Positions 11,721 to 15,416 of a stretch of 64,000 bases of DNA are shown here, piece by piece. How positions within the stretch are numbered: position 1 is the first letter of the stretch; each line of letters starts with the position of its first letter. The position numbers and the translations under genes were made by a program. The DNA is from Desulfobulbaceae bacterium (GTDB taxonomy: Bacteria > Desulfobacterota > Desulfobulbia > Desulfobulbales > SURF-16), in assembly GCA_020444175.1 (NCBI GenBank), contig JAHLLM010000010.1, positions 1 through 64,000 of the forward strand, in the 5' to 3' direction. The notes under the pieces were generated by a model that saw nothing but the letters and a program-made list of their open reading frames with translations, ran no database searches and was not told the DNA's origin.

Positions 11721-11898
11721 ATGCCCTAACAGGCTGTTGAAAAACTACTGCGCTTGCTGATACTGCGTCAAAATTCGGCTCAAAATGCTCATTTACTCCA
11801 TGTAAACTGTGCTTTTTCGCCTCATTTTCACCCTGAAGGGCATAAATCCTTGTCTCCGCTACGCTCGCTACATTTTTCAACAGCCCGCTGAAGGGCAT
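11721..11898. mobile_element. MITE-like element with GGCTGTTGAAAAA ends
   Basis: The ends AGGCTGTTGAAAAACT (11731-11746) and CATTTTTCAACAGCCC (11871-11886) are inverted repeats matching at 14 of 16 positions. Outside them ATGCCCT (11721-11727) and AGGGCAT (11892-11898) extend the symmetry. The element is about 160-180 bp and has no transposase. A related single end is seen at 41627-41650. It is inserted less than 80 bp before the start of the cytochrome gene, so it probably contributes to or separates that gene's promoter. Confidence 0.6.
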
Positions 11899-11974: not shown

Positions 11975-13321
11975 ATGAAGAAAAAATTTACTCTGGCTGC
12001 CATAACCCTTTTGGGTGTTGCAGTCACATTCGGAGCAGGCATGAGTTTTGCCGGGGAAGATGCTGGGTCAAGCAGTTCCTGTATTAAATGCCATACCGAT
12101 CTGGAAGAAATGGACAGTTATGGTGCCGCCTCGGCCAGTGGCGGCGCTGCAATAGCCGGTTGAGGCGTTTCTGCCCCTCAGGTGAGGGGCCGGGATAACT
12201 ATGGTGTGGCCAAGGATTTTGTCGATTCCGTTCATGGCGAAGTCGGCTGTATCAATTGTCACAACGGGCATAACGTTGATGATATGGAAGAGGCCCATGA
12301 AGGCGTAATAAAAGATCCTTCCGAGGAAGGAGGAGGCGGTGTCTGCAGGGACTGTCATGACGACATTACCGATACCTTCAAAGATGCCATGCATTATAAA
12401 TTGAACGGCATCATGGACATTGTCGGCACCATCACCTCTCCACATAAGATGGGCGACACGTTGCTGCCCGAGGCATGGAAACTTGACTGTGCCGACTGTC
12501 ATGCAACCTGTGGCGGTTGCCATGTTGCATGGCCTGAGGTCGCCAAAGGCGGCTTGCTGGATCGCCATCGTTTCAAGAAAACGCCTCCAATGGAGAAAAC
12601 CTGTTACGGATGCCACGGTTCACGCTTTGCCGGTGAATACATGGGCCTTTTAGGCGCGACTGCTGATGTGCATTACGAAAAGGGACAGATGGTCTGTGCC
12701 GACTGTCATACCGGCAACCAGTTGCATAATACCCAGCCCGATGGTGTGAATCGATATTATGCCACGGAAACAGCCAGATGCGAACAGTGTCATCCTGACA
12801 CCAAATCAGGCAGCTCAAAGATCGCCATGCATAACGCACATCCGGAAGGAACCATTGCCTGTGCTGTGTGCCATGCCAATGAGTATTTCAACTGTGCCAA
12901 CTGCCATGTGTCTTTGGATATCAAGCAACCTGGTCAGATTAAGGTTATTTTCCCGTCAGATCCGCTGGTAACCTTTAAGATCGGCAAAAACATAGATCGT
13001 TCGCCGCAAAATCCATATAAATACAATCTGGTTCGTCATACTCCTATGAAGAAGGATTCGCTTGCCTCGCTCCGCTACTTCCAGAAAGTGCTGAAAGGGC
13101 AACCCGGTCCGGAAGACCTTGTAGCAAACTATGACGCCCTGCCAACCTGGAACTCTGCATCTGTTCACAGTATCCAGAGGAAAACCAGGCAGAATCAATC
13201 CTGTAATTCCTGCCACGGACAAAAGGAACTTTTCCTGACCCAGGACGATCTCGTTCCGGAAGATCCGGCAGCCAACAAAGATATTATTGTTAACAGGATT
13301 CCTGCCCCAATTAAGGAATAA
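11975..13321 (+). CDS. Selenocysteine-containing periplasmic undecahaem cytochrome c
   Basis: The gene is read as one 448-aa protein through an in-frame TGA at 12161-12163 (residue 63), taken as selenocysteine. Residues 1-26 are a Sec signal peptide (ending SFA). There are 11 CXXCH haem motifs, one before the TGA (CIKCH) and ten after (CINCH, CRDCH, CADCH, CGGCH, CYGCH, CADCH, CEQCH, CAVCH, CANCH, CNSCH), so the two halves only make sense together. The part after TGA has no start codon or ribosome binding site of its own. A bSECIS-like hairpin follows the TGA. AGGAGG lies upstream of ATG 11975. It is the first gene of an operon with two secreted rhodaneses, suggesting periplasmic electron transfer to a sulfur, selenium or metal substrate. 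Selenocysteine multihaem cytochromes are reported in related bacteria; the residue may ligate a haem or be catalytic. Confidence 0.8.
12161..12190 (+). promoter_or_regulatory. Recoded TGA with bacterial SECIS-like hairpin
   Basis: TGA (12161-12163) is followed by GCCCCTC (12173-12179), loop AGGT (12180-12183) and GAGGGGC (12184-12190): a perfect 7-bp stem with a 4-base loop. The loop starts 17 bases after the TGA and has G at its second position, which meets the usual bSECIS rules (small loop, G among the first two bases, 16-37 bases from the UGA). SelB-tRNA(Sec) recruitment is inferred; no selenocysteine machinery genes are in the window. Confidence 0.75.
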
Positions 13322-13390: not shown

Positions 13391-14344
13391 ATGAAAAAGA
13401 ATCTTTTTCAATCAGCTATATTCATGCTGCTGTTTGCGCTGGGAGGGTTTATCCTTCCGGCAGTAGCTGCAGCTGCAAGCGACCCCTTGGTGTCAACTGA
13501 CTGGCTTTCCAGGAACCTTCAGGCCAAAGGACTCGTTCTTATCGATGTAAGAACCGAAACAAACTATGGAGTTGGACATATCCCAGGTGCGGTCAACATG
13601 GGGTATAACGGCTGGGAACCTTTTAATGATGACAGGGAATGCCAGTTGAGGCCGACTCCTGCTCAGTTTACAGAATTAATGCGCAAGTTGGGTATCAACA
13701 GTTCAAGTCATGTGGTTATCTATGATCACGGTAACACTATCAGTGATGCTACCAAGGGAGCTGCTGCATACTGGGTTCTGAAATCAATGGGTCATCAGAA
13801 TGTTTCCTATCTGAATGGCGGATTTACCAAATGGACTTTTGAAGGCAAAGAAATCGACAACCTTAAACCAACGCCTGCAGCAGGGGATTTCACGGCAAAA
13901 CCTGACATGGATAAAACCGCAGATTTTGATGATGTTAAGACTAAAGTCAACAATAAAAATGTTGTGTTTGTTGACTCCCGTACCCCGGAGCAGCATTTTG
14001 GCGTTGAAAAACGAGGTGATGTTGAGCGTTTTGGTCACATCCCCGGATCCATCAGTCTTCCTGCTCTATATCTGACCAATGCCGGTGCCAACCGTGCTCC
14101 TGCCACTGTTAAAGACAGAAAAATTTTGGCGGAGATCGCTCAGGGTGTCGGCTTGCCGTCCGATAAAAACACGGAGATCATTGTTTATTGTAATACCTGC
14201 CAGTTTGCCGGTATGGGTTATCTCGTTCTCCAGGACGTTTTAGGATACAAAAATGTCAAAGTCTATGACGGTTCCATGCTTGAATATGCTGCCTCGGAAG
14301 AGCTGCCCCTGGCTAAATTCGCATGGGGTCATGTGACCCGCTAA
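13391..14344 (+). CDS. Secreted tandem-domain rhodanese (sulfurtransferase), active-site Cys present
   Basis: The 317-aa protein has a signal peptide (about residues 1-28, ending AVAAA) and two rhodanese domains, like thiosulfate or mercaptopyruvate sulfurtransferases. The N-terminal domain (LIDVRTETNYGVGHIPGAVN) has no Cys at its active loop (YDHGN), as is normal. The C-terminal domain carries IVYCNTCQFAGMGY with Cys267 and Cys270; Cys267 is the expected persulfide-forming residue, and the second Cys makes a CxxC that is unusual for the family. AAGGAG precedes the ATG. It lies 69 bp after the selenocysteine cytochrome and 26 bp before a paralogue. Likely role: handling sulfane sulfur or a related chalcogen oxyanion in the periplasm for the cytochrome. 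Confidence 0.85.
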   Translation: MKKNLFQSAIFMLLFALGGFILPAVAAAASDPLVSTDWLSRNLQAKGLVLIDVRTETNYGVGHIPGAVNMGYNGWEPFNDDRECQLRPTPAQFTELMRKLGINSSSHVVIYDHGNTISDATKGAAAYWVLKSMGHQNVSYLNGGFTKWTFEGKEIDNLKPTPAAGDFTAKPDMDKTADFDDVKTKVNNKNVVFVDSRTPEQHFGVEKRGDVERFGHIPGSISLPALYLTNAGANRAPATVKDRKILAEIAQGVGLPSDKNTEIIVYCNTCQFAGMGYLVLQDVLGYKNVKVYDGSMLEYAASEELPLAKFAWGHVTR

Positions 14345-14370: not shown

Positions 14371-15318
14371 ATGATGAATAAAATAAACACGTTGCGTAAG
14401 TTAATTCTGGTCAGCCTTATGGTCATGCTTGCTCTGCCGGGCCTGGCTCTGGCTGATGGTGGTCTTGTCAGTGTTGACTGGCTTTCGAAAAACCTGAACA
14501 AAAAAGACCTCGTCATTCTTGATGTGGGCGCCTTTACTCATTATGAGAAAAATCATATTCCGGGAGCCGTCAAGGCATTTGGTCCCTGGCAGACAATGAA
14601 CGGCGAGTTTGTTGGTTTTATGATGCCGACAATCGATGATACGGAGCAGATGCTCCGTGATTTCGGTGTTAACAATAACTCTTTTGTCGTCGTTTATGAC
14701 GAAGGAGTGACCGATAAAGACACTGCAAAAAGTGCCAGGGCCATATGGACGCTGCATGCTCTGGGGCATACCAACGTTGCCATGCTGGATGGCGGTTTTT
14801 CAGCCTGGGAAGTTGCAGAAAAAGCTGTAACCACCAAAACGACAATCTCTGGGCCCGGTAACTTTCAGGCAAAGTTTAATGCCGCAAAACTGGCAACCCT
14901 TGCTGAAGTAAAAAGTAAAATTGGCAAGCCAAATGTTGTCTTTCTTGATACCAGGATTCCGGAAGAGCATTTCGGACATGAGAAGGTCAGCCACATCAAA
15001 CGGTTCGGTCATCTTGCCGGTTCACGGCTGTGGCCTGCAAAATATATGACCAATGCCGGTGTTGATTTCGCACCTTCTTTTCTGAAGGATGCCAAGGTTC
15101 TTGGACAGATGGCAATGGGCGTGGGTATTCCGGCTGATAAAAATGTTGAGATCATCACCTTCAGCAATCACGGAAAATCGGCAGCCATGGGTTATTTTGT
15201 CCTTCATGACATTCTTGGCTATACAAATGTTCAAATTTACGATGGATCCCTGCTGGAATATGCTCCCCTCAAGGAGCTGGATCTGCAGACAAACGGCTGG
15301 GGATATAAATCCATGTAA
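14371..15318 (+). CDS. Secreted rhodanese-like protein lacking the catalytic Cys
   Basis: The 315-aa protein is a paralogue of the preceding gene: a signal peptide (cleaved after ALA, about residue 27), two rhodanese domains and near-identical landmarks (LVSVDWLSKNL, FLDTRIPEEHFG, YDGSLLEYA). The active loop that reads IVYCNTCQFAG in the first protein is IITFSNHGKSAAMG here, with Ser265 in place of Cys, so it cannot form a persulfide by the normal route. It may bind substrate, form a heterodimer with the active paralogue, or dock to the cytochrome. An ATG at 14374 is an alternative start 3 bases downstream. A strong terminator follows. Confidence 0.85.
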   Translation: MMNKINTLRKLILVSLMVMLALPGLALADGGLVSVDWLSKNLNKKDLVILDVGAFTHYEKNHIPGAVKAFGPWQTMNGEFVGFMMPTIDDTEQMLRDFGVNNNSFVVVYDEGVTDKDTAKSARAIWTLHALGHTNVAMLDGGFSAWEVAEKAVTTKTTISGPGNFQAKFNAAKLATLAEVKSKIGKPNVVFLDTRIPEEHFGHEKVSHIKRFGHLAGSRLWPAKYMTNAGVDFAPSFLKDAKVLGQMAMGVGIPADKNVEIITFSNHGKSAAMGYFVLHDILGYTNVQIYDGSLLEYAPLKELDLQTNGWGYKSM

Positions 15319-15376: not shown

Positions 15377-15416
15377 AATAACGGGGCACGTTTTTGGCGT
15401 GTCCCGTTATTTTTTT
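15377..15416 (+). terminator. Rho-independent terminator of the cytochrome-rhodanese operon
   Basis: AATAACGGGGCACG (15377-15390) pairs with CGTGTCCCGTTATT (15398-15411), with one mismatch, around a short T/G loop, and is followed by T to 15416. A smaller hairpin, GCAGG-t-CGGG with CCCG-c-CCTGC, lies just before it at about 15342-15369. Confidence 0.85.

Follow-up and report, generated by a model that had tools for sequence, protein, structure and literature searches.

One gene in the window (the whole stretch of 64,000 nucleotides of Desulfobulbaceae DNA analysed here) encodes what is almost certainly a selenoprotein: an exported, periplasmic, electron-carrying cytochrome with eleven c-type haems, in which an in-frame UGA at codon 63 is read as selenocysteine (‘Sec63’). 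That conclusion rests on comparative evidence only, and no protein or 75Se evidence stands behind it. The protein represents a separate, widespread and apparently uncatalogued family of selenocysteine-containing cytochromes, whose genes are nearly always found beside, or fused to, a gene for a rhodanese. From that gene association and from distant homology it is inferred, with the balance tipping modestly in favour, that the cytochrome acts together with the rhodanese as a periplasmic sulfane-sulfur oxidoreductase.

The frame of the cytochrome gene is open throughout except for its single TGA, with one CXXCH haem-binding motif (at residue 36) encoded before that codon and ten after it; annotation pipelines would split the gene at this point. 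In an AlphaFold model of the cytochrome (pLDDT 74, pTM 0.71), Sec63, which sits in the motif AGUGVSAPQ, lies between haems 1 and 2 on a Gly-rich loop with pLDDT below 50. The features of the gene and its surroundings are collected in the following table.

Features of the selenocytochrome operon and its flanks (positions are those of the window)
Feature	Position	Strand	Details and evidence
11-haem c-type selenocytochrome gene	11975..13321	+	448 aa, almost certainly with Sec at residue 63 (TGA=U translation; family alignment)
Signal peptide	11975..12052	+	26 aa, predicted by eye; MKKKFTLAAITLLGVAVTFGAGMSFA
UGA selenocysteine codon (Sec63)	12161..12163	+	TGA in the same column in 87/92 relatives
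bSECIS apical hairpin	12173..12190	+	7-bp stem 12173-12179 / 12184-12190, loop AGGT 12180-12183 (fold, recoding control, covariation)
Lower 5-bp stem below a 1x1 internal loop	12167-12171 / 12192-12196	+	Fold
Secreted tandem rhodanese 1	13391..14344	+	PF00581, two domains; catalytic-loop Cys267, codon 14189-14191 (YCNTCQ)
Secreted tandem rhodanese 2	14371..15318	+	PF00581, two domains; Ser for catalytic Cys, codon 15163-15165 (FSNHG)
Probable intrinsic terminator of the three-gene operon	15380..15416	+	11-bp stem, loop TTTTTGG, T tail; read directly from the sequence
MITE-like element with inverted repeats, just upstream of the operon	11725..11893	.	Context, outside the mechanism

The evidence for selenocysteine includes the conservation of the codon itself. 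The read-through alignment behind the count in the table combines 80 loci from named genomes with 12 from relatives (some are duplicated between the two collections, and 87 distinct sequences remain in the tree). The scan that found the 80 named-genome loci used two C-terminal haem motifs as its seeds and was hence blind to the Sec site; 78 of these loci carry TGA in the column. Neither TAA nor TAG occurs there in any of the 92 rows, and the five non-Sec residues are Cys (L012), Tyr (L013 and L024), Phe (L076) and Met (L122). Full-length matches in 58 related genomes numbered nine with one TGA and three without, while a phylum-wide sample of 297 genomes yielded 42 matches in 38 genomes, 41 of which contain one TGA (the remaining match is a fragment that starts after the Sec column). 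The window’s own genome encodes a paralogue (G000:C37:163565), 38% identical, with one in-frame TGA in the same place. The family extends across Desulfobacterota, Desulfuromonadia, Chloroflexota (Anaerolineae) and Calditrichota; many loci come from metagenome bins, so that host names are approximate, and cultured carriers include Malonomonas rubra DSM 5091 (L089) and Dethiosulfatarculus sandiegensis SPR (L128). The tree requires three changes between Sec and non-Sec, and the simplest interpretation is therefore that Sec is ancestral and has been lost three times. One more clade within the family (L156-L165) displays the motif GEGUAGAPPxVxAE and a GC-rich hairpin that is differently placed.

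Two residues in the CHGSR motif that follows haem 6 vary together with the Sec site. Arg217 (codon 12623-12625) occurs in all 87 Sec proteins but has been lost from four of the five non-Sec homologues, and Gly215, which likewise accompanies Sec63, is also missing from four of those five. The Arg217 pattern is a hint that this residue and Sec63 are functionally coupled, although three of the four losses belong to a single clade.

A bacterial selenocysteine insertion element is, as a rule, a hairpin just 3' of the UGA, with its loop some 16-37 nt away and a G in the first two loop bases. The window hairpin satisfies that rule: nine bases separate the TGA from the stem, base 17 beyond the TGA is the first of the loop, a G occupies loop position 2, and the hairpin with its extended lower stem folds at -20.5 kcal/mol. 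The hairpin was then evaluated across the family, by comparing structures that meet bSECIS-like rules with those formed by 300 synonymous recodings of each peptide, drawn from the gene’s own codon usage. The Sec genes (n=87) average -11.2 kcal/mol versus -1.7 for their recodings (mean z -4.9), with 82 of the 87 reaching p 0.05 or better; none of the five non-Sec homologues has a hairpin beyond this control. In 55 distinct sequences of the UGG/UAG type, from the sister clade, 94.3% of the cells of an 8-bp stem are paired, double-change cells number 29 versus 3.4 when shuffled, and the covariation score is 0.343, as compared to 0.160 shuffled and no more than 0.136 in slid registers. The loop is GTT in every sequence of this type. 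The stem sequence varies, while the loop position, the G and the stem itself are kept. A search of Rfam returned no match within the operon.

The machinery for selenocysteine insertion is also present. The window’s genome (G000) contains a tRNA-Sec (RF01852, 67.2 bits, above cut-off) and encodes SelB (9e-110), SelA (8e-187) and SelD (3e-113). The SelD gene of this genome (G000:C79:89271-90194, L167) itself harbors an in-frame TGA, and its product is probably a selenoprotein in its own right.

An earlier, sequence-only reading had described a cytochrome split by an in-frame TGA, with a signal peptide and one haem motif before it and ten after, and a 7-bp hairpin whose loop (AGGT), spacing and G at loop position 2 fitted a selenocysteine signal. 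Both descriptions held, and its claim of selenocysteine is now strongly supported by comparison. The checks that could have refuted that claim (on the residue at position 63 in homologues, and on the selenocysteine genes of the host) were passed: the TGA is found at residue 63 in close and distant homologues alike, Cys takes its place in L012, and selA, selB, selD and tRNA-Sec are in the genome. Its statement that no restart site follows the TGA requires a small correction, in that an in-frame GTG at 12182 could in principle serve as one; no Shine-Dalgarno sequence is visible before it.

The association with rhodaneses has likewise been shown by comparison. Among 77 loci with enough sequence to judge the partner, BLAST identified a rhodanese next downstream in 37 and fused to the C-terminus of the cytochrome in 19; 10 of the remaining 21, read by eye, have a rhodanese-like protein directly downstream, so that a partner (adjacent downstream or C-terminally fused) is found in at least 66 of 77. 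Searches of PDB sequences and folds identified the fused C-terminal part as a tandem rhodanese. The paralogue in the window’s own genome is one of these fusions, whereas the window’s rhodaneses are separate proteins, and three of the five non-Sec homologues still carry a fused rhodanese. The catalytic-loop Cys is kept in the fused proteins and in every rhodanese 1 compared within the window’s clade. Rhodanese 2 has Ser at that position in all compared copies of the same clade, and is probably a conserved ‘pseudo-rhodanese’, a non-catalytic partner beside a rhodanese 1 that looks active. In some relatives, namely L063 (7682), L064 (9361) and L065 (9396), both rhodaneses are followed by a third secreted protein, likewise conserved, of about 300 aa and unknown function.

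One Chloroflexota clade (L103, L115, L120 and L126) departs from this association: its neighboring genes were read, and no rhodanese adjoins the cytochrome, although Sec is present. As a separate observation, the next gene encodes another multihaem protein in three of these four loci, and L120 is also followed by a cytochrome b-like membrane protein.

The probable terminator downstream of the operon was not among the results of a terminator scan; a probable reason is that its stem, extended by A/T pairs, reaches into the T tail. The MITE-like element upstream has arms GGCTGTTGAAAAA and TTTTTCAACAGCC at 11732-11744 and 11873-11885, and recurs in the genome as 48 BLAST pieces, or about 40 copies; another copy (C37:166018) follows the fused paralogue at a distance of no more than about 0.5 kb.

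The mechanism proposed for these proteins is inferred, in the absence of any Sec-haem or Sec-rhodanese Cys distances. Sulfane sulfur, whether that of thiosulfate, of polysulfide or of a persulfide, would be bound by the tandem rhodanese in the form of a Cys persulfide; Sec63 would accept the sulfur from the rhodanese as an Se-S intermediate; and a haem core resembling that of octahaem tetrathionate reductase (OTR) would either feed electrons in, with release of sulfide, or draw electrons out, the direction not being known. Because the family alignment contains no other conserved Cys outside the haem motifs, the partner thiol for Sec63 would be the rhodanese Cys. Mobile arms that carry selenocysteine are familiar from other enzymes, such as thioredoxin reductase, and the flexible, Gly-rich Sec63 loop resembles them. 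Several observations stand against the model: some homologues have Tyr, Phe or Met in place of Sec, three of the five non-Sec ones retain a fused rhodanese, and the Chloroflexota clade keeps Sec without an adjoining rhodanese.

Two rival explanations can still be entertained, both of which are considered unlikely. The first assigns to Sec63 the role of a haem axial ligand, or of a structural or redox-sensing residue, rather than that of a catalytic nucleophile, and takes the protein to be an electron relay. In its favor, the family alignment has only about 10 conserved His outside the CXXCH motifs for eleven haems, and therefore at least one haem may be without a conserved His ligand; moreover, Cys, Met and Tyr are each able to ligate haem. 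However, L076 has Phe at the Sec position, the loop that carries Sec63 is rich in Gly and is predicted to be disordered, and the rhodanese fusion speaks for sulfur chemistry. The cost of selenocysteine is, in addition, usually justified by nucleophilic catalysis.

The second rival holds that the protein is a selenite or tellurite reduction cytochrome like that of the Geobacter ExtHIJKL system, and that the rhodanese takes the part of ExtH. ExtKL is also a Sec-containing multihaem cytochrome that adjoins a rhodanese-like protein (PMC5877670, PMC6148476), and the window’s rhodaneses weakly match ExtH (far below cut-off, at E 1e-12 and 5e-17). However, the window cytochrome belongs to another family, with eleven haems rather than five and a different Sec site: the ExtKL model (NF040886, curated cut-off 250 bits) gives no match to it at E up to 1, and alignment of ExtKL with the family by hhalign covers only 23 columns, at 33%. 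Furthermore, no ExtI-type porin was seen beside the operon, and no ExtKL above cut-off was found in G000. The least tenable alternative, that the TGA is a nonsense mutation, a sequencing error or the mark of a pseudogene, can draw on the fact that standard gene callers would split the gene there, but is all but excluded by the same-column TGA of relatives in several phyla, by the ten conserved haem motifs downstream, by a site that holds TGA and never another stop codon, and by a hairpin that covaries.

The remaining claims of the sequence-only reading can be judged in this light. The two secreted rhodaneses downstream were confirmed, and the link to them is strengthened by the many same-chain fusions. 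Its comparison with the Geobacter ext loci failed as far as the cytochrome is concerned, which is not ExtKL. Of the chemistries that it raised, that of sulfane sulfur is the best reading, although an inferred one, while that of selenite or tellurite remains possible without specific support here; its idea of an unusual haem ligand has neither held nor failed on sequence evidence.

A bolder reading, judged somewhat less likely than not, is that this uncatalogued and widely distributed family is a respiratory one, in which Sec would join the persulfide chemistry of a rhodanese directly to a haem ‘wire’. If true, it would amount to a sulfane-sulfur reductase or oxidase that depends on selenium and belongs to Anaerolineae and to bacteria that reduce sulfate or disproportionate sulfur. 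The natural fusion to a rhodanese offers a direct clue to substrate chemistry, and thereby makes a role for selenium in periplasmic sulfur redox reactions testable.

Few families of Sec-containing multihaem cytochromes have been predicted so far (ExtKL and some octahaem cytochromes), and the present one is a further, separate addition. An inventory from 2026 that covers 119 families of prokaryotic selenoproteins (PMC13188914) lists ExtKL, the Sec-containing octahaem cytochromes of TIGR04315 and the GSU2204 family, with no entry that fits these 11-haem proteins. No NCBIfam model was reached by the window cytochrome or by eight other members, and the open-access literature that was searched (without subscription journals or preprints) holds no description of the family, although a prior description is not excluded.

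The cytochrome is probably a distant relative of OTR, as judged from a profile match and from its closest PDB fold. Haems 3-10 of the family align by hhalign with the OTR profile (TIGR04315) at 98.3% probability and E 1.4e-14, with the caveat that CXXCH spacing accounts for part of the match between multihaem profiles. Foldseek returned no significant match for the cytochrome alone; upon re-alignment, the closest PDB chain was 1sp3, a Shewanella octahaem cytochrome (Z 8.4 over 281 residues, rmsd 4.5; next row 4.1), at a Z that models of this kind often reach by chance and at which such matches only start to be meaningful, but in agreement with the independent profile result. The curated cut-off for TIGR04315 (375 bits) is not met: the window protein is unlisted at E up to 1, and L002 and L122 score 23.6 and 26.7 bits. 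OTR contains eight haems versus the eleven found here, which include two extra N-terminal haems. Many OTR members also exchange a conserved Cys for Sec, as is common in the phylum sample (L173, L176, L177, L181, L183, L185, L189 and L190). That Cys or Sec resides in an NNF[C/U] motif before haem 2, which is absent from the present family, where the equivalent stretch is without Cys. An equivalence between Sec63 and the OTR site was considered and rejected: haem 1 of OTR aligns with haem 3 here, so that sequence homology between the two sites is lacking. By this alignment Sec63 instead precedes the OTR-like core, within an N-terminal extension absent from OTR. Lys191 was also rejected as an OTR-like haem ligand, as it is not conserved.

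Other known systems are more remote. The DmsE/MtrA-type decahaem cytochromes (TIGR03508; 42 bits versus a cut-off of 192) and the GSU2203 family (NF041028; 27 bits versus 325) share a weak, partial similarity in haem array, and neither contains Sec. ExtKL, found in Geobacter and relatives, has in common with the present family a periplasmic location, multiple c-type haems, a UGA-encoded Sec and a rhodanese-like protein nearby, but places its Sec in a C-terminal HxIPDGUPTPNR motif (HTIPDGUPTPNR in the five-haem ExtKL proteins of related genomes), and its operon differs in containing the porin ExtI and other genes. Finally, both downstream proteins of the window, and the fused C-termini of its homologues, match the tandem rhodanese type of PF00581 (the 3-mercaptopyruvate and thiosulfate sulfurtransferases); unlike the usual members of that group, they are secreted, are associated with an 11-haem cytochrome or form one chain with it, and, in the case of rhodanese 2, bear Ser at the catalytic position.
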